Source: Stigmatella aurantiaca
GTDB lineage: Bacteria > Myxococcota > Myxococcia > Myxococcales > Myxococcaceae
Assembly (NCBI RefSeq): GCF_900109545.1
Contig: NZ_FOAP01000011.1
Span: 186,001 to 250,000, forward strand
Reading direction: 5' to 3'
Length of the DNA stretch: 64,000 nucleotides
A program made the position numbers and the translations under genes. Of this stretch, positions 42,023 through 54,029 are shown piece after piece (the first letter of the stretch is position 1; every line of letters begins with the position of its first letter). The notes beneath the pieces were generated by a model. That model searched no databases. It saw nothing but the letters and a program-made list of their open reading frames with translations, and was not told the DNA's origin.

Positions 42023-42513
42023 ACTCCACGCCCCGTGCCTCCCCTACCCTCTCGTCCACCTCCGACCGGGAGATTGTAATCTCGCGCCTGATCAACGCCC
42101 CGCGCGAGCTGGTATTCGATGCGTGGACCGACCCGGCCCATGTGGCCCAGTGGTGGGGCCCCAACGGCTTCTCCACCCAGGTCCACGAGATGAACGTCAA
42201 ACCGGGCGGCACCTGGCGGTTCCTCCTCACCGGGCCCGACGGCACGAAGTTCCCGAACCGCATCACCTACCGGGAGGTGGCGCGCCCCGAGCGGCTGGCG
42301 TACCAGCACGACTCCGACGTGGACGAGGACCCGAAAGCGTTCGACGTGACCGTGACCTTCGAGGCCCAGGGCCAGAAGACGCTCGTCACCATGCACTCGG
42401 TCTTCCTCACGGCCCAGGCGTGCCAGCGTGTGAAGTCGTTCGGCGCGGCGGAACTCGGCCAGCAGACGCTCGCCAAGCTCGACGCATTCGTGCAGCGCTC
42501 ACCCGCCCGCTGA
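42019..42513 (+). CDS. SRPBCC (AHSA1-like) protein
   Basis: A 164-residue START-fold protein: IVISRLINAPRELVFDAWTD at about 17-36, VAQWWGPNGFSTQVHEMNVK, GGTWRFLLTGPDGTKFPNRI and the YREVARPERLAY block. These are typical of the AHSA1 family, often co-encoded with ArsR repressors and binding small hydrophobic ligands. The start codon overlaps the ArsR stop (ATGA). The 3' end overlaps the convergent ligase gene by 15 nt. Confidence 0.93.
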   Translation: MNSTPRASPTLSSTSDREIVISRLINAPRELVFDAWTDPAHVAQWWGPNGFSTQVHEMNVKPGGTWRFLLTGPDGTKFPNRITYREVARPERLAYQHDSDVDEDPKAFDVTVTFEAQGQKTLVTMHSVFLTAQACQRVKSFGAAELGQQTLAKLDAFVQRSPAR

Positions 42514-43803
42514 CCGGCGCGCACTGGAGGCTTGGCTGCCGTCCACCAAGGCCGCGAGTTCCGCGGCGTCACAGATGTAGACGGGCTTCCCGGGCCGTCC
42601 AAACGAGACCGGCTCATTCCGGTTGTAGAGGGTCCCTCTGGGAACCAGGTCCACCCGCAGGCCGACGCCATGGGCTTGCCGCAGACGCTCCAGGAGTGCG
42701 GGCTGGAGGGGGAACTCGTTCCGCTCATGTTCCACGATGAAGCGGAGCCCTTCCGGTTCGGCGGCGGCCTTCCAGAACCGCCGGCTCGGGAGCTGGAACA
42801 CGATGGACTGCAGGTCCCAGAGGTCGAACGGCTTGCCCTGGACCCTCAGGATGTCCGCCGCCCTGCCCCGGTGCTGAAGGGTGATGGATTGGCCACATGC
42901 ACAGGGCTGGTTCAGAAGCCTGACCCTGTCGCCCGTCATGTACCGGATCATGGGGGTGGCCCTGGGGGTGAGCGACGTGACGACCAGGTTTCCCGTCTCC
43001 CCGGGGGCCACCTCGTGCTCGAAGCGGTCATCCAGAACCTCCATCCAGACAGCGTCTTGGAACGGGTGCAGCCTGCGTTCCGGGCAGTCCATGGCCTGGG
43101 GTCCGGTCTCGGTCATCCCATAATTGTCATAGACGGGGACTCCCCAGATGTCGTGGAGGAGCTGGCGGCGGTACGGCGTGAGGGGCTCTCCGCCACAGCA
43201 AATGGCACGCAGGTGGGGAAAATCACGGCGAGGGTCGAAGCCCGCCATCTCCGCCGCTTCGGCCACCACCACCGCTTGCAGCGACATGGTGGCCAGGACG
43301 GTGACCTGCAGCTTTCTCATCAACTCGACCACGGTCCGCAGGGGGGTGACCGCGGTTCCCGCGTCCGCGGCAATCACACACGCGCCCTTGTGGTGAGCGG
43401 CGGCCTGGACGAAGTGCGCGATGGAGGAGAGCGCATAGGGGAACTTGATGAGCACGCGGTCGTCGCGGTTGAAGCCGACGCCCCAATTCCCCAGACGGCT
43501 CCGGATCTCTTTCAAGTCCTTCTCGCTGTACCAGACGGAGACCGCGGCCCCCGTCGTCGCGGAGGTCTCGTGGTACTGCAAGAGCTGTTGACGTGGAACG
43601 CAGACCAGCCCCTCCGGAGAGTGCCGCCGCAGGTCCTCCTTCGTCGAGAAGGGGAGCCGCTTGAAGTCCTCCCAGGACTGAACGGGAGTGACCGGCAGGT
43701 GTGCCCTGTAGAAGGGAGCATTGCGTGCATGCCGCAAGATCCGGTTGAGGGCTTCCAGTGGATAAAGCGACGCCATGGTTCTCTTCCCTGTGTGGATGTT
43801 CAT
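42499..43803 (-). CDS. PaaK-like adenylate-forming ligase (last gene of the aminohydroxybenzoate operon)
   Basis: A 434-residue ANL enzyme of the phenylacetate-CoA ligase/F390-synthetase type. The substrate-binding loop is ETSATTGAAVSVWYSEKD near 79-96. AICCGGEPLTPYRR, VYDNYGMTETGPQAM and YMTGDRVRLL are the core adenylation motifs. There is a CACG block, and HRGRAADILRVQGKPF is the hinge to the C-terminal domain. It should activate a carboxylic acid as an adenylate, probably an aminohydroxybenzoate or its acyl partner. The ATG at 43803 overlaps the amidohydrolase stop by 4 nt (ATGA), strong evidence for the start and for joint function. In known benzoxazole pathways such a ligase is paired with an amidohydrolase. 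Confidence 0.9.
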   Translation of the reverse strand: MNIHTGKRTMASLYPLEALNRILRHARNAPFYRAHLPVTPVQSWEDFKRLPFSTKEDLRRHSPEGLVCVPRQQLLQYHETSATTGAAVSVWYSEKDLKEIRSRLGNWGVGFNRDDRVLIKFPYALSSIAHFVQAAAHHKGACVIAADAGTAVTPLRTVVELMRKLQVTVLATMSLQAVVVAEAAEMAGFDPRRDFPHLRAICCGGEPLTPYRRQLLHDIWGVPVYDNYGMTETGPQAMDCPERRLHPFQDAVWMEVLDDRFEHEVAPGETGNLVVTSLTPRATPMIRYMTGDRVRLLNQPCACGQSITLQHRGRAADILRVQGKPFDLWDLQSIVFQLPSRRFWKAAAEPEGLRFIVEHERNEFPLQPALLERLRQAHGVGLRVDLVPRGTLYNRNEPVSFGRPGKPVYICDAAELAALVDGSQASSARRSAGG

Positions 43804-44555
43804 TCGAGGCGAAGCAGTTCACGGATGTTCCCGCCGAGAATCCTCTCGCGCTCGTGGCTGGAGATGGGGAGCAGGAGAATCTTTTTCAGTTCCACGGCGG
43901 GGTGCGACAGGGGGTACTCGGAGCCGAAGAGCACCTTGTGGGCTCCTGCCTTCTTGACCGATTCCTCGATGTGCAGGTAGCTGCCCAGCGAGGTCTCCAG
44001 GAAGACATTGTCCAGGCGGTTGGCGGCGGCCGTCGCCTCTGGATCGGCCGGTCCAAACCCCAGGTGCTCCAGGACAAAGTTGGTGCGAGGGAAACGCTGG
44101 GCCAGCGCGGCGAACCCGGCCGTGCTGGCCCCTGGATGGGGCCCGGTATGTGCGTAAACAGGCACCCCCAGCTCACCACAGAAGCTCACCAGTCCGGCAA
44201 CGGCCGGGCTGTCGAACGGCACGGGATGAACCAGGGGTGCCAACTTCAATCCACGGAAACCTCGCCTCAAGTACCCCTCCAGCGTCTGGACCGCTTGTGG
44301 CGCTCGTGGATCCACACACGCAAGCCCATGCAGCTGGGGGTGGGCACGGAAGGACTGCTCCACATACCCATTGTCCGGGACGTCGTTGTCCGGCTTGAGT
44401 TTGCCCCCAAGGTAGGCGCTCATCCGCCTGACATCCAGCATGGCGCCAGGGCCAATGATGCCCTGCTGGATGCCGCTCTGTTCGAGCTGCTTCAGATATC
44501 CCTCTGTGGCTCCATAGCTGGAGAGAGAGACGTGGGCATGCGCATCGATCACCAT
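43800..44555 (-). CDS. Amidohydrolase-family enzyme of the operon (possible cyclase or amidase)
   Basis: A 251-residue TIM-barrel amidohydrolase of the COG2159 type: MVIDAHAHVSLS (HxH at residues 6-8), KLAPLVHPV near 125, VYAHTG near 150, FVLEHLGFG near 180 and VLFGSEYPLSHP near 220. The residue after GS in the last block is Glu where many members have Asp, so the metal site may be altered. Family members are hydrolases or decarboxylases. In benzoxazole biosynthesis such proteins catalyse ring closure. The start ATG at 44555 lies 7 nt after GAGAGG. It overlaps the ligase gene and follows the multicopper oxidase by 29 bases. Confidence 0.88.
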   Translation of the reverse strand: MVIDAHAHVSLSSYGATEGYLKQLEQSGIQQGIIGPGAMLDVRRMSAYLGGKLKPDNDVPDNGYVEQSFRAHPQLHGLACVDPRAPQAVQTLEGYLRRGFRGLKLAPLVHPVPFDSPAVAGLVSFCGELGVPVYAHTGPHPGASTAGFAALAQRFPRTNFVLEHLGFGPADPEATAAANRLDNVFLETSLGSYLHIEESVKKAGAHKVLFGSEYPLSHPAVELKKILLLPISSHERERILGGNIRELLRLE

Positions 44556-44584: not shown

Positions 44585-46153
44585 TCAGTGGTGAGGGCCG
44601 TGGCCGCCCCCCGCATCCTGCTTGGGTGGAACAACCTCCAGCAGCTCCATCATGCCTTCGTCCTCGTGGGACACGATGTGGCAGTGCAGCATGAACTGGC
44701 CGACGTAGCGCTTGTAACGGGTGCGCAAGCGAAACTCCGCGCCAACAGGCACGAACAGCGTGTCTTTCCAGACGATCCTTCCCTGCGCATCCGTGAACTG
44801 GAAGGGATTGGTGTGGATATGGAAAGGATGGCCCGGGAAGAACTCCGGGACGCCCGTACTGGTGACGAGCCACTCCTCCACCGCGCCCAGGGTCAGCTTG
44901 CGTGGAGGCGCATGGGCATCGAACTCGACGCCGTTGAGGAGGAATTTGAAGACAGGCGTCGGAGGCGGTTGCAGCATCTGGACTTCGAAATGCGCGGGCT
45001 GAGGCGTATGGCTGGTGAGCTCCTCGTCCAGGATGGGCTTGAACGGCGCGAACGGTGCCAGCGCCTGCGGCTTGGGCAGCTTCATCTTCTTCGGCGGCCC
45101 GCTCACGACGATGCGCGCCAGGACCTTGGCCTGGGGGTTTTGCTCCACCTCGTCCACGAGCAGGTAGGTTCCCTGCGCCAAGGGCTTCCCATCCCGGCCC
45201 ACCGCCTGGACCAGCACATCCTCACGGTACCCGGGGTGCATCTCGGTCTCGTCCACCTTGTCGAGGCGGCCCGTCGTGATGCCATCCATGGCAATCAAGT
45301 AATAGGGAATGCTCTCGGTGGCGGGGTTGCCGCCCTCCCGGACCAGCCGGAGCCGGAAGGGAAAGTGGATGCCCGCGTGAATGAACCGCCAGCGCTCGAC
45401 TTCTCCCGGACGCATCTGGAAGGTCGGCAGGGTCTCTCCATTGAGGGTGACACGCCGCCCTTGAGGCACGAGCTCGCTCAGCCAGGTGAACTCGAAGAGC
45501 TGACCGAACTCCTCCACCATGTTCGCCTGCTGGGTCTCGTCGTAGGGGTTGGTGACCATCTTGTAGGGAATCTGCTGCAGGACGAGGATGCGCTCCCGGG
45601 CTTCACGAATCCCCTCGACGCCGTCAATACCGCCGCGGACGATCAAGGGCCCCGCCATGCCGCTGCCCAACTGGATGCCCACGGCCCCATGCTTGTGGGC
45701 GTGGTACCAGTGGGTGCCCGCGGGGTGATCACTCGGAATCTTGACCTCGTACTCGAACTGCTGGTTCGGGCCGATCGACAGCATGACGTTGTCGGAGTTT
45801 CCGGCGGGTGAGACGTGCATCCCGTGGAAATGGAGATTGGTGACGTTGGAACCGTGAGGGCCGTTGTGCGGGTGATCGCCCACCATGTCTTCCTTGAAGG
45901 GAAGCTGGTTCTTCAAGAGAACCTTCAGCGTGTCTCCGGGGCGGACCTCCATGACCGGCCCCACCAGCTTCCCATTGTAGGAACGGAGGTTGACCAGGTC
46001 GACCTGCACTTGACCGTCAGCGAGCACCCGGCGGATCGGGTGGGTGGCGTATTGGACCGTCAACTCGTGACTGACCTCCCGGATGTGTGGCTTCTCCCAG
46101 GAGCCTCCATGCTCCCCCCCATGCCAATGCAATTCTTTCTCAATGCCGTTCAT
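44585..46153 (-). CDS. Multicopper oxidase (laccase-like), no signal peptide
   Basis: A 522-residue three-cupredoxin oxidase. Copper ligands are visible in NLHFHGMHVSPAG near 97-109, GTHWYHAHKHG near 137-147, HPFHIHTNPF near 443-452, and MLHCHIVSHEDEGMMELLEV near 492-511 with the T1 Cys-His. It oxidises phenols or aminophenols with O2. Bacterial laccases are often Tat-exported, but the N-terminus here ([13 protein letters not shown]) has no signal, so it should work in the cytoplasm. A cytoplasmic location fits a tailoring step on an o-aminophenol, such as quinone-imine formation. The ATG at 46153 is preceded by GAGGAGAG and overlaps the monooxygenase stop by 14 nt. Confidence 0.92.
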   Translation of the reverse strand: MNGIEKELHWHGGEHGGSWEKPHIREVSHELTVQYATHPIRRVLADGQVQVDLVNLRSYNGKLVGPVMEVRPGDTLKVLLKNQLPFKEDMVGDHPHNGPHGSNVTNLHFHGMHVSPAGNSDNVMLSIGPNQQFEYEVKIPSDHPAGTHWYHAHKHGAVGIQLGSGMAGPLIVRGGIDGVEGIREARERILVLQQIPYKMVTNPYDETQQANMVEEFGQLFEFTWLSELVPQGRRVTLNGETLPTFQMRPGEVERWRFIHAGIHFPFRLRLVREGGNPATESIPYYLIAMDGITTGRLDKVDETEMHPGYREDVLVQAVGRDGKPLAQGTYLLVDEVEQNPQAKVLARIVVSGPPKKMKLPKPQALAPFAPFKPILDEELTSHTPQPAHFEVQMLQPPPTPVFKFLLNGVEFDAHAPPRKLTLGAVEEWLVTSTGVPEFFPGHPFHIHTNPFQFTDAQGRIVWKDTLFVPVGAEFRLRTRYKRYVGQFMLHCHIVSHEDEGMMELLEVVPPKQDAGGGHGPHH

Positions 46154-47369
46154 GTGTGCTCTCCTCTCTTGCTGCTGCACTGGCTTCGGCCAGCGCGTCG
46201 TGCGCGTACAACCAGTCCATCCGGTGCGCGAGCCTTCCCGGCCTGAACCGATGGGTGAGCCGGAGCTGGGTGTTGCGTCTGAGGACCTGGACAGGCCGGG
46301 CGAGGTGAAACAGTTCAGCGCTGCCCCGCGAGACCCCTTGGATCCGGCTGGTCCGGGGCTTGCGCAACCGCTCGTATTCCTCCAGCGCCTCCCGAGGCCT
46401 TCCGGCGCTTCGAGACAGACAGCCCGCGAGCACCACCGCATCCTCGATGGCCTGGGCCCCTCCCTGCGCCTGGAAAGGCAGCATGGGATGGGCGGCATCC
46501 CCCAGCAGCGTGACGTGCCCACGGCTCCACCGGGGCAAGGGCTCCCGGTCGTACAAGGCCCATTTGAAGACCTGCTCCGTCGCGCGGATCATCTCCAGGA
46601 CTGCGGGGTGCCACCCCTGGAATTCCGAGAGGAACTCCGAGGAGGTTCCCTGGGCCGACCAGGACTCCAGCGGCCACGTCTTCGCCGGGACCACGGCGAC
46701 GCAGTTGAGCTGGCGCCCCCCTGAGATGAAGTAGTGCATGAAGTGCCGCCCGGGGCCCCACCAGGAGGTCAGGTTGCGCTGGAGCCGGAGGCCCTGGATG
46801 CGTTCGGCCGGGAGGACGGCGCGGAAGGCCGCGTAGCCCGAGAAGCGGGGGCGCTCCGGCCCGAAGGCCGCCGTCCGGACGGCCGAGTGGATGCCATCCG
46901 CGCCAATGAGCAAGTCCGCCCATTGGCTGGAGCCATCCGCGAAGTCCACGCGCACCCCACCGTCTTCCTCGACAAAGCCGGTGCAACGGGCGCTCAGGTG
47001 GAGCGGCTCCTGCCCGAGTGCCTTCAGGAGCACCGCGTGCAGGTCGGCCCGGTGGACGTGGTAATACGGGGCGCCGTACTCCTGGAGGCAGCGCTCGCCC
47101 AGGGGGGTGGAGAAAATGCGCCTTCCGGTGTTCCAGCTCCTGACCTCCAGCGACTCCGGGGCCACCGCGGCAGCGCGCAGGTGCTCTCCGCACCCCAACT
47201 GAAGGAGAGCCCGCGTGGCATTCGGGCTCATCTGGATGCCGGCCCCGACAGGCTGAAGGCGGGCGGCCTGTTCGAACACCCGCGGCTCGAACCCGGCCCG
47301 CCGTAACGCCAGGGCCGCCGCCAGTCCGCCAATGCCGCCGCCGGCAATGAGGATGCGCGGGCAGCTCAC
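46140..47369 (-). CDS. Class A flavin-dependent aromatic monooxygenase
   Basis: A 409-residue FAD enzyme of the salicylate/p-hydroxybenzoate hydroxylase type: [18 protein letters not shown] near 5-22 (dinucleotide loop), [14 protein letters not shown] near 150-163, and [20 protein letters not shown] near 283-302 (GD motif). It inserts one oxygen into an aromatic ring using NAD(P)H and O2. PtmB3, which hydroxylates 3-amino-4-hydroxybenzoate in platensimycin synthesis, is of this class and also sits beside GriI/GriH homologues, so ring hydroxylation of the same acid is the leading hypothesis. The start is a GTG at 47369 overlapping the aspartate kinase stop (GTGA). Confidence 0.88.
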
Positions 47370-48658
47370 TGCAAGCCCCCTTCGGCATACGCGGCGGAAG
47401 GTTCCGCGGCGTCCGTGGGCGCGAGGAGGAAGGCCTCGTGAAGGATGCGGAGCGCTTCGTCCGCATGGTTCCCCTCTACCAGTCCGCTGATGCGCAGCTC
47501 GTTCACGGCCAGGTCCGAGACACCGATGCCGTGCCGGGCAAGGCTGCGGCACACACGGGCGGCAATCCAGGGATCCGACCGGATGCCAATGCCAACCAGT
47601 GACACCTTGGCCAGGCCCGCCGAGACGTGAACCCTGGAGGCCCCCATGCGCTCCACGAGCTGCTCCAGCGAGGGCCTCGCGCGGAGCAGTTCCTCTTCGG
47701 CCAGGGTGAACGCGAGGCTCGCATGAACGTCCTCCCGGCAATGGCGCAGCAGGTCCACGCTCGTGTTCATCTGGGCCAGCAGCTCCATCAGCTCCGCCAC
47801 CCGGCCGGGGTGGTGCTCGATGCCGGAGATCTCCACCCGCGCCTGGTTCCGCTCGCAGGCCAGCCCCGCGAGCACCCGGGATTCGAACGTCTTCTCCCGG
47901 GAGACGACCCAGGTCCCCTCCTCCTCCGAAAACGTACTGCGCACGTGAACAGGCACCTCGTATTTCATGGCGATCTCCACGCTGCGCACCTGCAGAACCT
48001 TGGCTCCCAGGGACGCCAGCTCGAGCATTTCTTCGTAAGGGATGGACTTCAGCTTCCGGCCGGACGCGCAGACGCGGGGATCCACCGTGTAGACGCCTTC
48101 CACGTCTGTGTAGATTTCACAGACGTCCGCGCCCAGCGCGGCCGCCAGGGCCACCGCCGTGGTGTCCGAGCCCCCACGCCCCAGCGTGGTGATGTTGTCA
48201 TCGGAGTCCACGCCCTGAAATCCGGCGACCACGGCGATCTGCCCCCGCGCGAGGGCCTTGCGAATGCGCTCCTGCTCCACCTGGTGGATGCGGGCCCGGG
48301 TGAAGGCGCTGTCCGTGCGCAGCGGGAGCTGGTGTCCCAGGAAGGAGCAGGACTGTCCCCCCTCGGACTGGATGGCCATGGAGGTCAGCGCCGTGGAGAC
48401 CTGCTCTCCCGTGGCGGCAATCACATCCAGCTCCCGTGCATCCGGGCGGGAGAGCATCTGATGGGCCAGCCCCAGCAGGCGGTTCGTCTCCCCGCTCATG
48501 GCGCTGACAACGACCACCACGTCGTTGCCTGCCCGTTGGCTCTCGAGCGCCAGCCGCGCGACCTTGCGGATGCGCTCGACATCCGCCACGGACGTCCCCC
48601 CAAACTTCTTCACCATAAGGGGACGGCCGCTCCTGGGAAACTGCTCAAATGCTCTCAT
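47366..48658 (-). CDS. Aspartate kinase, operon-dedicated copy
   Basis: A 430-residue aspartokinase: [20 protein letters not shown] near 14-33, [36 protein letters not shown] near 150-169, and [17 protein letters not shown] domains follow from about 270, with [20 protein letters not shown] and [18 protein letters not shown]. It makes 4-phospho-aspartate, the first step to aspartate semialdehyde. Here it lies between the aldolase/cyclase pair and the tailoring genes, with 11 bases to the upstream gene and a 4-nt overlap downstream. It is therefore likely a pathway copy supplying semialdehyde, not the housekeeping lysC. Whether it is released from lysine/threonine feedback cannot be read here. 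Confidence 0.92.
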
Positions 48659-48669
48659 GGAACGCTCTC

Positions 48670-49914
48670 TCAGCTTTCGATGATGTGCTCGTCGACCTTG
48701 ATGCCCACGTGCCGTCCCGGCAGGGCCCTGTGGCCGAGCAGTTGGTCCCCGGGCTTCAGCTCGGTGATGTTCAGCGGCTTGGCATCGTCCGAGAAGATCC
48801 GGACGTGCCAGTCGTCCTGCATGATGACGTTGATGCACTCGCCGCCCTGGAACCGGGCCTCGATGAGGCGCAAGGGCCGCATCTCCGTCTTCATCCGGCC
48901 CACGCTGGAGCGGCGCGTGCTCCCGGTACGGTCGACCAGCATCAAGGGCGAACCCGCCCTGAGTTCGCTCATGTAGTCCGTGCGGTTGCCGAAGTTGTAG
49001 ACGTAGCTGTGGACGGCCCCGGCGTTCACCCGGAAGGGACGCAGCTCCATGTAGGGCAGGAAGAAGACCTCCGGGCAGCACAAGAGCCCTCCCTGCGACG
49101 TGGAGCCCACCAGGATGCCCTCCGTGGGTGAGAAGAGCGTGGTGGTGTCGATGCAGCTGCGGTAGCCCATGCCGATGGGCGTGCTGCGCACCAGCGTCGC
49201 CACCTCCAGTTGCACCGCCGTGCGCTCCAGCCGGCCCAGGCGCGAGACGAAGTCACTCAGCGCACCGTGGGCACGCGGCGAGAACATGACCCCGTCCGCG
49301 CCCACCTCCATCACCCCCAGGGTGACGATGGCATCGTCCACGTCCGTGGGCGTGCTGATCTCCTTGATGAGCACGGTGTTCGTGGCCTGCAGCGAGGCGA
49401 TCACCAGCTCCAACGGGATGTTGGTGGGATCCCTGAAGCGGATCATCAGATAGGCGTGGCGGCAGCCCTCCTGGATGGATTGATGCAGGCTCTCTCCATC
49501 ATCCACGTAGGCCCGGTAGCACGTCTTCAGCCCCTGCTCCGCCGCCTTTGCCAGCACCTGCACATCCGGGCTGGCCACCACGGCCTCCCGGGAGGGAAGC
49601 ACGGAGAGCTGCTCCAGGTCCCCGGCGCTTTCGGCATGGAAGACCGTGAGCATGCGCGCGGGGATGGCGGGGGCGAGCGCGGCCAGGTTGTCCGGGTAGA
49701 GGAGAATGCCGGTGTACGGCAGGTTCGTCAGCCGCGCGATCAAGCCCTCGTGGTCCTGGGGGGTGGACAGCCCCCGCGAGTCAAACCAGACCATGAGGGC
49801 GCTGGACTCCTCGGCCCGGTTCCGGCCTCCCTCCAACCGCTCGAGCCGGATGCGCTCGCGTTTGTGCATGGTAACGGCTTCGCTCATGTTGATGACAGTG
49901 TCTGGGGTGCTCAT
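48670..49914 (-). CDS. 3-Dehydroquinate synthase II family protein (GriH-like, 3-amino-4-hydroxybenzoate synthase)
   Basis: A 414-residue protein with the DHQS II signature: [18 protein letters not shown] near 240-257, [38 protein letters not shown] and [19 protein letters not shown]. In archaea this family makes dehydroquinate. In Streptomyces the homologue GriH converts the GriI product to 3-amino-4-hydroxybenzoate. A GriI-type gene directly upstream points to the second role. A GTG at 50013 overlaps the aldolase stop, but I prefer the ATG at 49914, which has AGGAG 5 nt upstream and removes a 33-residue Ser/Arg-rich stretch. The 11-nt gap to the kinase gene shows one transcript. Confidence 0.9.
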
Positions 49915-50009: not shown

Positions 50010-50843
50010 TCACTTCACGGCTTCACTGAAGCCCTGGGTCAGGAAGGCGGCGGCCCCCTGACTGCCGACGGCGTGCTCCCCCTGCAGGAGGTCCCACACC
50101 TGGTCGAGGAGAAGCGACGGCCGTTCGCGCTGGAAGACGTTCCGTCCGACGCACAGGCCCGTGGCACCGCAGGCCACCGCCTCCTGGACCAGGGAGAGGA
50201 ATTCCTCGTCCGAGCACTTGGAACCGCCCGCGAAGAAGACGGCGGTGTGCTCCTGGATGCCGTCCAACAGGACCGGCAACAGGGCGAGCCTGGCGGGCGC
50301 GGCGATCTTGAGGGCATCCGCGCCCAGCTCGACGCAGGCGCGCATGAGGTGGCGCATCCGCAGCAGGCGCTGCTCCTCCCGGGCAGGATCGGTCTTGTCG
50401 TAGACCATGGCCAGCACCGGCAGCCCCTCGCCGTGGGCCTCGTCCACGGCCCTGCCCAGCATGACCAGGTTCTCGGCGTCGTTCGTCCCGTCGAAATTGA
50501 GCTGCAATGAGACCGCGTCCGCGCCGAGGCGCAGCGCCCGCTCCACCGAGGTCAGGATCTCCTTGCGGTTCGGCGTGGACGACAGCGAGGTCATGCCATT
50601 GAGGTGAATCATTACCCCCTGGCGCCGGAGCAGCCCTTGCTCCGCCAGCCGCTCGATCAACCCCTTGTGGGCAAGGATCCCCGTGATGACCGGGTGCCGG
50701 ATCCATCGCCCGATCTGTTCCAGGCTCTCCAGCCCCTGGATGGGCCCCAGGGTGAGTCCATGGTCCATCGGGACGATCACCCCCCGGTGGGAGTCCTCAT
50801 GAAGGAAACGCGACCAGCGAATCCTTTTTGCAACGCCATCCAT
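50010..50843 (-). CDS. 2-Amino-3,7-dideoxyheptulosonate synthase-type aldolase (GriI-like)
   Basis: A 277-residue class I aldolase of the DhnA/FbaB group: VIVPMDHGLTLGP near 22-34, ITGILAHKGLIE, VSLQLNFDGTND near 110, LVMVYDK-like VLAMVYDK near 141, ADALKIAAPAR near 176 with the Schiff-base lysine, and FFAGGSKCSDEEFLSL. Family members join aspartate semialdehyde with a C3 phosphate. GriI uses dihydroxyacetone phosphate in 3-amino-4-hydroxybenzoate synthesis. The next gene encodes the GriH partner, which decides between this and archaeal aromatic-amino-acid function. It is first in a seven-gene minus-strand operon. The promoter must lie in 50844-51034, shared with the divergent Svx-like gene. 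Confidence 0.9.
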   Translation of the reverse strand: MDGVAKRIRWSRFLHEDSHRGVIVPMDHGLTLGPIQGLESLEQIGRWIRHPVITGILAHKGLIERLAEQGLLRRQGVMIHLNGMTSLSSTPNRKEILTSVERALRLGADAVSLQLNFDGTNDAENLVMLGRAVDEAHGEGLPVLAMVYDKTDPAREEQRLLRMRHLMRACVELGADALKIAAPARLALLPVLLDGIQEHTAVFFAGGSKCSDEEFLSLVQEAVACGATGLCVGRNVFQRERPSLLLDQVWDLLQGEHAVGSQGAAAFLTQGFSEAVK

Positions 50844-51034
50844 GGCTCCTGCCTTTCGAGTGCTCCACGGTCCTCTGAGGCAGAAGGCCGAAAGGAAGGA
50901 TGTGAGTGAGGACGCGCCCCCCGTCCGCTATCCCTGAGCGCGAGGAGGCGCTCTCTTGTCCGGCTGGAAGGCGATTTCCAGATAACCTCCGGCGATTCAA
51001 AGCGCCGGACAGGCGAAAACGGAGGAATGAAAGC

Positions 51035-52903
51035 ATGTTCATCGATGGGCGTTTGCGTCCCTCTCCCCTGCTGCTCGTGATGGGGATTCTTGGGACCGGG
51101 GGTCTTCAGGACGAAGCGGTGACCGAGGCTGGCGAGGGAGTCCAGGCGGAGGCCCAGAAGGTGCTCGCTTGTGATCCCGGCACCACGACAACCACCTGGG
51201 CAACGAACTGTCCGGCGTCTCCTCCCGCCTGTACCCCGGGTACCTGGACGGCGGGCGGTCCGGACCCGGACCACTCCAACTTCAAGTTGATCAAGCAGTC
51301 CGAGCACTTCGCCATCTACTCGGACGAGACCATCGCCGATGCCACGGCACAGGGCGCGCTCGACACGCTCGAGAACACCATCTGGAAGTTCTATTTCGGC
51401 TCGCCGATCTTCTTCAAGGAGCCGCTCTGCAACCTGACGAACAAGACCAAGGTGAGCGTTCACGTCCACTCCGGCTGGGGGCTGTCCGGCGGTGCGTGGA
51501 CCTCGACGCGCATGGGCATGTGGATCGGCCCGGGCGCGCTCAACGACCACTGGGGGCTCGGTCACGAGTTCATGCACTCCGTGCAGAGCGTGAGCGGCGG
51601 GATGTCCTGCAACCGCACGAACACCTGTGGCTGGATCTACGAGAGCCACGCCAACTTCATGCCGCACCAGCTCCCCGAGTACCGCAACCAGGTCCACTGC
51701 TCGGAGATGTCCGTGAACGCGCCGCACGTCTATCTGGGCTCGACGCGTGACCGCTACTGCAACTGGCAGTTCATGGAGTTCCTCAAGGACAAGTACTGCT
51801 ACAGCGCCGTCAACGAGATCTGGACGAGCAGCCCGAGCAACGATCCCTTCTCCCAGATCATGAAGACGCGGGGCTGGAACATCAGCCAGCTGAATGACTT
51901 CTTCGGTGAGTGGGCGATGCACAACGTGACCTGGGATTACAAGGATCCGCCCCCCACCGCCGGCGGCAACCAGGGCCCCACCTACCTCTCCCGGTATGGT
52001 TCGATCACGGCCAAATCGCGGCCCGAGCAGCGCCTGCGCCTGACCCAGCTCGAGCCACTGGACGGGGATTACGCGGCCCATCGCCGCTTCGTGACGCCGA
52101 GCGCGTGGGCACCGCAGCGCTGGGGCTACAACATCGTGCGGCTCTACCCGGATGCGGGCGCCACGAGCGTGACCGTCACCTTCCGGGGCGTGACGCAGGG
52201 CGGCGCGGACTCCGATTGGCGTTGGGGCCTCGTCGCTACGGACAGCGCCATCACCACGCCGCGCTACAGCACCCTGCAGAGGGGCTCGGACGCCTCGCTG
52301 GAGTTCTGCATCACTCCTGGGGAGTCGCTCTTCCTGGTCGTGGTCGGTACGCCCGCGGTGCAGAAGCAGATCGTCTGGGACCAGATGTACAACACGATCC
52401 ACCGCTACCCTTGGATGGTGCAGCTCGCCAATGCCTGGCCCGAGGGCTTCCGCAACGGCGCCCAGGACACCTGTCCTTCGGGAACGCGCCGTCACCCGAA
52501 CGGCGGCGGCTGTGCCCTCAGTAGTGTTCCAGCGAGCGTGTACGTCGGCCCCTACGCGCAGGTGCTCGGCGGTACCGTGAGCGGCACGGCGCGCATCGAG
52601 GACCACGCGACCGTCCTGTCGGGCACCGTCTCCGGCGGCACCGTCACCGGTCTGTCCGTGCTGACGAACGGCTTCAGCGTGAGTGGCTCGGCGCGGGCCG
52701 CCTCCACGTTCTACCCGCTCGGCTTCTATGAGGGCCAGCAGTCGATCTCGGGCACGGCACAGCTCATCGGCGACATCGAGTACCGCGGCGTGGGCACGAA
52801 CAAGTCGAGCGGCACCTACTTCGGCTTCGTCGAGCCCATCACCCCGGCCGCCTCGAACACGGCGGACGTGACCATCGCGCCGCCCTACGCCTGGCGGCCG
52901 TAG
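51035..52903 (+). CDS. Svx-like/DUF6055 secreted metalloprotease
   Basis: A 622-residue protein with a signal-like N-terminus, then a Cys-rich segment and a globular domain with GLGHEFMHSVQSVSGG near 174-189 (HExxH) and WIYESHANFMPHQ downstream, where the Glu may be a third ligand. The layout fits the Svx/DUF6055 group of secreted putative metalloproteases. The C-terminal 130 residues are rich in Gly/Thr/Ser and repeated short beta units (GGTVSGTARIEDHATVLSGT), perhaps a left-handed beta-helix. It probably acts outside the cell. The ATG at 51035 follows GGAGGA. A GC-rich hairpin follows the stop. Confidence 0.75.
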   Translation: MFIDGRLRPSPLLLVMGILGTGGLQDEAVTEAGEGVQAEAQKVLACDPGTTTTTWATNCPASPPACTPGTWTAGGPDPDHSNFKLIKQSEHFAIYSDETIADATAQGALDTLENTIWKFYFGSPIFFKEPLCNLTNKTKVSVHVHSGWGLSGGAWTSTRMGMWIGPGALNDHWGLGHEFMHSVQSVSGGMSCNRTNTCGWIYESHANFMPHQLPEYRNQVHCSEMSVNAPHVYLGSTRDRYCNWQFMEFLKDKYCYSAVNEIWTSSPSNDPFSQIMKTRGWNISQLNDFFGEWAMHNVTWDYKDPPPTAGGNQGPTYLSRYGSITAKSRPEQRLRLTQLEPLDGDYAAHRRFVTPSAWAPQRWGYNIVRLYPDAGATSVTVTFRGVTQGGADSDWRWGLVATDSAITTPRYSTLQRGSDASLEFCITPGESLFLVVVGTPAVQKQIVWDQMYNTIHRYPWMVQLANAWPEGFRNGAQDTCPSGTRRHPNGGGCALSSVPASVYVGPYAQVLGGTVSGTARIEDHATVLSGTVSGGTVTGLSVLTNGFSVSGSARAASTFYPLGFYEGQQSISGTAQLIGDIEYRGVGTNKSSGTYFGFVEPITPAASNTADVTIAPPYAWRP

Positions 52904-52924
52904 CCCCCTTGACGGGAGCCAGCT

Positions 52925-52963
52925 CCGGGCCGCGCGAGGGGTCAGTCCCCCGGCGCGGCCCGG
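52925..52963. terminator. GC-rich hairpin between convergent genes
   Basis: CCGGGCCGCGC (52925-52935) pairs perfectly with GCGCGGCCCGG (52953-52963), and the 17-base interior can pair further (GGGG / CCCC). It lies between the convergent Svx-like gene and the S66 gene. It has no T run but is well placed as a bidirectional terminator. Confidence 0.6.
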
Positions 52964-52974
52964 GGGTGGTCCGT

Positions 52975-54029
52975 TCAGCGGCAACCCGGCTCGTCGATGG
53001 AAAAACGTCTCCCGGCCGGATCAATCGTCGCCTTTGCGCCGATCGGGATCACGAACATCGGATCGGTGTGCCCGAAATCCATGCGGGTGATGATCGGTAA
53101 ATCCTGCCTTCCATACTCCGCGCAGGCCTTCAGAAGCATGCCTTCATACTCGGCGAACTTCTCGGCTACCACATTGCATGGCCGCGCAAACAAGATGCCG
53201 CTGATCCTGTCGATGATGCCTTGTGCGCCCAGATTGCGCAGCATGCACAGGAAAGCACCGGGCGGCATGGCTTCCTCGGAATTCTCCAGGAATAGGATGG
53301 CATCCTTCCATGTATCGGCATCTGGCCAAACCGAAGTACCGATGATCATTGGCAGCACGTCGGTGCAGCCGCCCAGCAGCCGTCCCGTGACCGAGGCTTT
53401 GCCTTGCAGAAATTGCCATTCCATCGGCGGATGCATCTTGCGTTTGATGCTCTGGTTTTCCGGCACATCCCACGCCAAATGCTCGCTTGTCCAGCCTTCC
53501 TTGCTGTTTTCGATAGTGCCGATGACCTTGCTGGAAAACACCGACCGTCGCACAGATTGGATCAGATAATCGTGCATGCCCGTGTTCTCGGCGAATCCTG
53601 TCATGATGACAGGGCCGTAGTAGCTGCGCAATCCAGCCTTCAGGCAGACGAAATGCGACACCGTCGTGTCAGAGTACCCCATGAAAATCTTGGGATTGGC
53701 GCGGAGAATTTTCACATCAATCTTGTCGATCAGCCGGACGGAGTCGTCGCCCCCGATACAGCTGATGACCGCTTTGATCTCGTTGTCCGCAAAGGCCTGA
53801 TGCAGGTCATCGGCCCGCGCCTGCGGATTGTTATAGAGATAGTCCGCGCCTTTGAGCGTGTTCGGCATTTCAACAACTTGTACGCCGAAGTGTCCTGCAG
53901 CTGCTTCTTGCCAGCCTCGTAGCGCGCGCGAAACCTCTCTTCCCCTGCCCCACCCCATGACAGGGAAACCGTGGCAATCTTGTCGCCGGGCTTCAGTCCG
54001 GGTGGAACCATCAAGCCTGAAAGCGTCAT
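52975..54029 (-). pseudogene. S66 family peptidase (LD-carboxypeptidase/MccF type), frameshifted
   Basis: The N-terminus is in one frame (MVPPGLKPGDKIATVSLSWG from 54029 to about 53895) and the rest in another (HFGVQVVEMPNTLKGADYL onward to 52975). Loss of one base near 53894, inside CTGCAGGACACTTC, explains both. Restoring it gives about 350 residues, normal for the family. The catalytic Ser is in FMGYSDTTVSHF and the His in MDFGHTDPMF. S66 enzymes cut LD-peptide bonds or inactivate microcin C. The gene is clearly lower in GC than its neighbours and probably transferred. A sequencing error is the alternative to a true pseudogene. Confidence 0.85.

Follow-up and report, generated by a model that had tools for sequence, protein, structure and literature searches.

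We analysed a window of 64,000 nucleotides from Stigmatella aurantiaca (contig NZ_FOAP01000011.1, positions 186,001 to 250,000; host genome 9.37 Mb in 61 contigs), in which an initial annotation had singled out an amidohydrolase and an adenylating ligase as a possible benzoxazole-forming pair. The amidohydrolase (43800-44555, minus strand, 251 amino acids) matches Pfam Amidohydro_2 with 105.9 bits and the ligase (42499-43803, minus strand, 434 amino acids) matches Pfam AMP-binding with 69.4 bits, both above the curated cut-offs. The span originally annotated, 42499-44555, contains both genes but only the last two of a seven-gene minus-strand operon (50843-42499). In order, the operon encodes a DhnA-type aldolase, a 3-amino-4-hydroxybenzoate (3,4-AHBA) synthase of the 3-dehydroquinate synthase II (DHQS II) type, an aspartokinase, a FAD monooxygenase (FMO), a multicopper oxidase, the amidohydrolase and the ligase, with junctions of +95, +53, -4, -14, +29 and -4. 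Judged by sequence comparison, the pair itself is a further member of the PfxB/PfxC kind of closoxazole biosynthesis; the new part is a cluster without the second ligase, PfxA, and without the basic acceptor residue of the first.

The bases at 43803-43800 read ATGA on the minus strand, joining the amidohydrolase stop to the start of the ligase open reading frame as first described. This ATGA may not be the actual ligase start, because Met10 (43776) is a plausible alternative: it has GGGAAGAG directly upstream, aligns with the position at which many homologues were taken to begin and would give a protein of 425 amino acids. Relative to a close relative (G038; G and L numbers are our handles for genomes and loci), the amidohydrolase gene differs at 5/3/24 sites in codon positions 1/2/3 and the first 400 codons of the ligase gene at 17/5/53. 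Since the differences fall mostly at third codon positions, both look like real, kept genes.

Both proteins are close to enzymes of the closoxazole pathway of Pyxidicoccus fallax DSM 14698 (pfxABCDE), which has been reconstituted in vitro. The amidohydrolase is 60% identical to PfxB (L064) and the ligase 68% identical to PfxC (via L051, the same stretch as L064). PfxC couples two 3,4-AHBA molecules, to an unstable ester on the authors' evidence; PfxB then forms the benzoxazole ring, and PfxA attaches a third unit to its carboxyl (PMC12118335). Identities to the canonical, pfx-type clusters of the host's family are 59–63% for the amidohydrolase and, across 11 such clusters, 65–68% for the ligase. 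This bears out the initial annotation, and we consider it very probable that the two enzymes form a benzoxazole.

The initial annotation had suggested placing the amidohydrolase in a tree with benzoxazole cyclases and with ACMSD or decarboxylase members. A tree of 38 PfxB-type sequences places it with three others (support 97/99), near the canonical myxobacterial clusters and with PfxB; the loci were compared without ClxD, and ACMSD and decarboxylases were compared by fold only. By this placement it belongs to the clade of functional PfxB. Residues D4, H6, H110, H164, D171 and E213 are invariant and H8 and H136 at least 90% conserved in 31 family sequences; all are present in the window protein, and we infer that they serve as metal-site and acid residues. 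The glutamate at GSE, first thought to be a special Asp-to-Glu change, turns out to be family-wide, occurring in 31/31 sequences including functional PfxB. The AlphaFold2 model (pLDDT 91.5) has the ACMSD/dihydroxybenzoate-decarboxylase fold, with 15–24% identity among the best 50 matches listed. That fold, common to 2,6-dihydroxybenzoate decarboxylase and ACMSD, would also suit a common decarboxylase or hydrolase whose gene simply adjoins that of a CoA ligase. Such an enzyme is very improbable here, since PfxB, which has been reconstituted, is 60% identical and the gene neighbourhood recurs in both Bacillota and Myxococcota; the grouping with ordinary decarboxylases that the initial annotation had named as grounds for dropping the idea is not seen by sequence. 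No match to the amidohydrolase was found in the viral contigs searched.

Of the benzoxazole pathways invoked at first, the 3-amino-4-hydroxybenzoate-derived closoxazole type (ClxD/PfxB, ClxA/PfxC) fits and nataxazole does not. We rejected NatAM as a model for the cyclase: it is a two-domain protein of ~494 residues against 251 here. NatAM appeared neither among phmmer matches of the amidohydrolase at E ≤ 1 nor among the best 50 fold matches listed, an absence that by itself carries no weight. The nataxazole ligase NatL2 is nearer, with ~34% identity to the window ligase in structural alignment and a Zn site built from the same kinds of residue, and NatL2/NatAM share the ester-then-cyclise logic of the window pair; their substrate, however, is 3-hydroxyanthranilate and NatL2 keeps Arg156 (PMC7204872).

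The ligase groups with the same three clusters as the amidohydrolase (support 100/99 in a tree of 32 rows), again close to the canonical myxobacterial ones. The top PDB match of its model (pLDDT 88.2) in Foldseek is ClxA with 3,4-AHBA and adenylate (9s45, E 6.6e-41), followed by NatL2 (E 1.7e-40) and AjiA1. With a ClxA structure carrying these ligands as its nearest match, the modelled pocket should accept an aryl acid; inability to do so had been the other stated ground for dropping the pair. The Zn site (C240/H246/C301/C303) and Lys406 of the C-terminal extension are kept in 32/32 ligases. The clx system of Clostridium cavendishii (ClxA structures 9s3l/9s45) shares with the window the ligase fold, the C-terminal-extension Lys and 3,4-AHBA chemistry, but in ClxA Lys140 remains next to the acceptor carboxylate, there are two ligases and no FMO is mentioned in the available portions of the reports (PMC12519233).

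The window ligase lacks the basic residue that contacts the acceptor carboxylate in these relatives. In NatL2, Arg156 holds this carboxylate (PMC7204872); in ClxA, Lys140 is docked on it, and the K140A variant couples acids to catechol, which the wild type does poorly (PMC12519233). The position equivalent to NatL2 Arg156 is Gly149 in the window ligase (codon 43357-43359, minus strand), Gly in all four ligases from clusters that carry the FMO and Arg in 27/29 ligases of other clusters, the exceptions being Thr in L072 and Tyr in L074. This census omits three duplicate loci (L059, L064, L077) and stood at 26/28 before the L046 ligase, which has Arg, was read separately. The window Gly was first visible in the alignment and the comparison with canonical ligases came after, so that the loss was not predicted beforehand. 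Across 76 columns at least 90% conserved in 28 ligases, only three differ in all four FMO-type proteins (R35H, T53S/L and R149G), in a comparison that did not include L046. Amidohydrolase changes particular to FMO-type clusters are S106A, F112V/L and S206H. This separate comparison of subtypes excluded the distant rows L055, L056, L074, L078 and L052-L054 for the amidohydrolase, and L055, L056, L074, L077, L078 and duplicates for the ligase.

The host genome also holds a pfx-type cluster on another contig (G000:C6), comprising a PfxA-like ligase, amidohydrolase, ligase, DHQS, aldolase, aspartokinase and a divergent oxidase. Its proteins are 59% (amidohydrolase), 65% (ligase) and 77% (DHQS, the one other copy in the genome) identical to those of the window. 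As judged from these comparisons, the window cluster is a separate type. It has a 3,4-AHBA synthase, an aldolase and enzymes of the PfxB and PfxC types, as expected of a clx/pfx cluster, but it lacks PfxA/ClxC, the second ligase, which acylates the carboxyl of the benzoxazole: no PfxA-type ligase is present in the cluster, the genome has one close copy, on a different contig, and nothing else in it matches better than 28%. Orthologous clusters occur in three other genomes (L039 in G038, L041 in G033 and L042 in G032); no PfxA-like ligase was found in the 20-kb stretches around them, and the FMO is present instead. Amidohydrolases at least 74% identical are restricted to four genomes of the 195 searched in the phylum, while at family level (96 genomes) there are 18 matches of at least 50% in 11 genomes. 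Compared with pfx, the window cluster thus lacks PfxA, has an extra FMO, has Gly for Arg in the acceptor loop and an oxidase without a signal-like N-terminus, and differs in gene order. Among the matches listed in open-access literature, we found no publication on such a cluster, none joining 3,4-AHBA and aminohydroquinone, and no fitting one on benzoxazol-5-ol or aminohydroquinone gene clusters.

The FMO (46140-47369, minus strand) is a group A enzyme with a Pfam FAD_binding_3 domain, which we propose to be a decarboxylating ipso-hydroxylase of 3,4-AHBA. Its top PDB matches are TrlE (324 bits), NicC (281) and decarboxylative vanillate 1-hydroxylase (251), followed by 8r2t (237; its name is uninformative and we did not count it as decarboxylating), 4-hydroxybenzoate decarboxylase (206), non-decarboxylating 3HB6H (192; the entry is titled probable salicylate monooxygenase and was taken as 3HB6H via entry 4bjz) and salicylate hydroxylase (183). 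TrlE, of the 3,7-dihydroxytropolone pathway, performs ipso-hydroxylation and then decarboxylation; its site contains R185, H213 and Y217 (PMC11110157). For NicC, too, a decarboxylative reaction has been described (PMC6692525). The nearest solved relatives of described function are therefore decarboxylating hydroxylases, whose substrates and pathways differ from those of the window FMO, and the substrate-binding residues are kept: Arg183, His209 and Tyr213 align with the TrlE trio (offset by hand). Homologues at least 80% identical occur only in the four clusters of the window type, the next being at 44% (96 genomes).

Three features are consistent with 2-aminohydroquinone, which has no carboxyl, as the acceptor: the absence of PfxA, an FMO related to decarboxylating enzymes and the loss of the carboxylate anchor. 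The aldolase and the DHQS II protein, with the aspartokinase, would make 3,4-AHBA. The FMO would then exchange the carboxyl of part of this 3,4-AHBA for a hydroxyl, giving 2-aminohydroquinone; 3,4-AHBA is a para-hydroxybenzoate, and attack at its ipso carbon C1 with release of CO2 is plausible chemistry for this enzyme class. The ligase would adenylate 3,4-AHBA and esterify it to a hydroxyl of 2-aminohydroquinone, in a site whose acceptor-carboxylate anchor is gone. In the zinc amidohydrolase, the neighbouring amine would attack the ester carbonyl and water would be lost, yielding 2-(3-amino-4-hydroxyphenyl)benzoxazol-5-ol. Such a product has no carboxyl and so leaves nothing for a PfxA-type ligase to extend, in keeping with the absence of one from the cluster. 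The multicopper oxidase may afterwards oxidise the o-aminophenol or phenol ring. Five of the assignments (aldolase, DHQS II protein, aspartokinase, PfxC-type ligase and PfxB-type cyclase) come from comparison, and the FMO decarboxylation and carboxyl-free acceptor from inference.

We give just under an even chance to the ligase using a carboxyl-free acceptor in a second, altered closoxazole-type pathway. The fuller proposal, for which we would not quite claim even that, is that the product is 2-(3-amino-4-hydroxyphenyl)benzoxazol-5-ol (C13H10N2O3, calculated [M+H]+ 243.08), with a natural Gly paralleling the engineered ClxA K140A; within it, the product would possibly be oxidised to a quinone or phenoxazinone dimer and would be made alongside closoxazole in the same cell. 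If true, the cluster would provide a natural enzyme pair plus hydroxylase for benzoxazoles without a carboxylate, and would suggest that losing one gene, gaining another and changing a single pocket residue can convert one pathway into another. Given the absent second ligase and the altered acceptor site, we rejected closoxazole as the default product of the cluster. Hyaladione of Hyalangium minutum was also set aside as a product: the literature, in the portion available to us, names it only as a quinone, and we claim no link.

Several observations weigh against a carboxyl-free acceptor. Each of the four FMO-type genomes has a canonical, PfxA-containing cluster as well, so PfxA could act in trans. 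On this basis the window could encode a plain second closoxazole pathway, in which the product of the pair is the carboxylated benzoxazole of PfxC/PfxB (m/z 271.07), PfxA from the other cluster adds the third unit and the FMO only hydroxylates a ring. The ligase also retains the DNYGMTETG stretch of most canonical myxobacterial ligases. A simple duplicate, however, is hard to reconcile with separate precursor genes in a separate operon, a type-specific FMO and an acceptor-carboxylate Arg lost in 4/4, and we regard it as unlikely while giving it appreciable weight. The four FMO-type clusters form one clade, so that the missing PfxA, the FMO and Gly149 amount to one historical event; the three signs agree with the model but, lying on one branch, are not three independent evolutionary tests. 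The Arg is also lost in L072 and L074, where no such FMO was found, and the ligase changes R35H and T53S/L have no explanation in the model. The likeness to ClxA has its own limits: K140 sits one alignment column before the Arg, and the ClxA authors state that no close NatL2 acceptor contact is conserved in ClxA (PMC12519233). The parallel is therefore by loop and not by exact column.

ClxA K140A also yields oligoamides up to n = 4 (PMC12519233), so an enzyme without the anchor does not necessarily use a carboxyl-free acceptor. The Arg could instead have been lost to admit a larger acceptor, leading to longer 3,4-AHBA or benzoxazole oligomers, with an FMO that hydroxylates without decarboxylating. 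The best NCBIfam model for the FMO is indeed the non-decarboxylating 3-hydroxybenzoate 6-monooxygenase, below cut-off (308 against 459 bits), and its Arg/His/Tyr trio is also common to 3HB6H. Such an FMO would resemble PtmB3 of platensimycin biosynthesis, which hydroxylates without decarboxylating. For the single control homologue, from the host genus (43% identical to the FMO), the best matches were 3rp6/3rp8 (187 bits), then TrlE (160) and NicC (158); TrlE and NicC are therefore common neighbours in this enzyme family, although the order of matches differs between the two proteins. Against the oligomers, the FMO scores solved 3HB6H below TrlE, NicC, vanillate 1-hydroxylase and 4-hydroxybenzoate decarboxylase, and we hold them to be improbable.

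The multicopper oxidase (44585-46153, minus strand) has Pfam Cu-oxidase_2/3 domains and the copper motif HCHIVSHEDEGM, and we propose it as a late o-aminophenol or hydroquinone oxidase. A weak relation to PhsA (NCBIfam 55.7 bits against a cut-off of 950; PDB phenoxazinone synthase, E 8e-11) raises the alternative that this enzyme turns 3,4-AHBA or aminohydroquinone into a phenoxazinone as the end product, with the ligase and amidohydrolase giving a side product. Yet 10 of the family's 11 canonical clusters have a homologous oxidase beside them, and the remaining one (P. fallax) is truncated by the end of its contig, so the oxidase is not special to the window cluster; the ligase and amidohydrolase, moreover, show the codon-position bias of kept genes. 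We rate a phenoxazinone pathway as having only a slim chance. The loci from Sorangium, Nannocystis and Bacillota showed no homologous oxidase. By eye, the four FMO-type oxidases lack a hydrophobic, signal-like N-terminus, and from this the oxidase step may, as a faint hint, have moved into the cytoplasm in these clusters. Oxidases near canonical clusters (L038, L040, L043-L050) appear, also by eye, to open with such a stretch.

The precursor genes agree with the initial annotation, which had noted GriI and GriH homologues near the pair: both lie in the same operon. The GriI/PfxE-type aldolase (50010-50843, minus strand, 277 amino acids), of the DhnA, 2-amino-3,7-dideoxyheptulosonate synthase type, is the first gene and matches Pfam DeoC above cut-off and NCBIfam ADH_synth and BagB_FevI below cut-off; these searches used the shorter reading 50010-50780, and the longer start (50843) is similar to the start of the homologue in L038. 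The GriH/PfxD-type DHQS II protein, the 3,4-AHBA synthase (48670-49914, minus strand, 414 amino acids), scores 289 bits with Pfam DHQS and 240 bits, below cut-off, with NCBIfam BagC_FevH. The aspartokinase (47366-48616, minus strand) exceeds the NCBIfam aspartate kinase cut-off and is expected to supply aspartate semialdehyde for 3,4-AHBA.

The pfx genes of P. fallax correspond to the window in the amidohydrolase, ligase, 3,4-AHBA synthase and aldolase, and pfx-type clusters of other genomes in the family likewise have adjacent genes for an aspartokinase and a multicopper oxidase. The P. fallax contig (L064/L051, 49585 bases) ends just after pfxE, so these two genes could not be seen beside pfx in that assembly. 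Other arrangements were met elsewhere. L055:6902-14218 (G041) has aspartokinase, DHQS, aldolase, amidohydrolase (33%) and ligase (38%), then a further AMP-binding enzyme and a Haem_oxygenas_2 protein; the first five genes of L056 (G007) are similar, and these loci probably represent one more kind of uncharacterised cluster derived from 3,4-AHBA. A PfxB-type amidohydrolase (51–52%) lies beside a PfxA-like ligase alone in three genomes that share a genus (L052:9662-11684, L053 and L054), and no PfxC or 3,4-AHBA genes were found in the 20 kb stretch around it. Two metagenome-assembled genomes of Clostridia (L063, L067) have two tandem PfxA-like ligases and a PfxB-type amidohydrolase, with no PfxC-type ligase within the short stretch covered. 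Sorangium cellulosum So ce26 has a second, divergent cluster (L074:7494-12849) of aldolase, DHQS, PfxA-like stretch, amidohydrolase, ligase and a ThiF-family protein, whose ligase is the one with Tyr at the arginine position.

Upstream of the operon, a minus-strand open reading frame of 735 amino acids (50777-52984) was rejected as a pathway gene, as it has no Pfam match and the plus strand there encodes an Svx/AvrXca-family protein. The latter (51035-52903, plus strand), directly upstream of the operon on the opposite strand, scores 583.8 bits against a cut-off of 625 and looks unrelated to the pathway.

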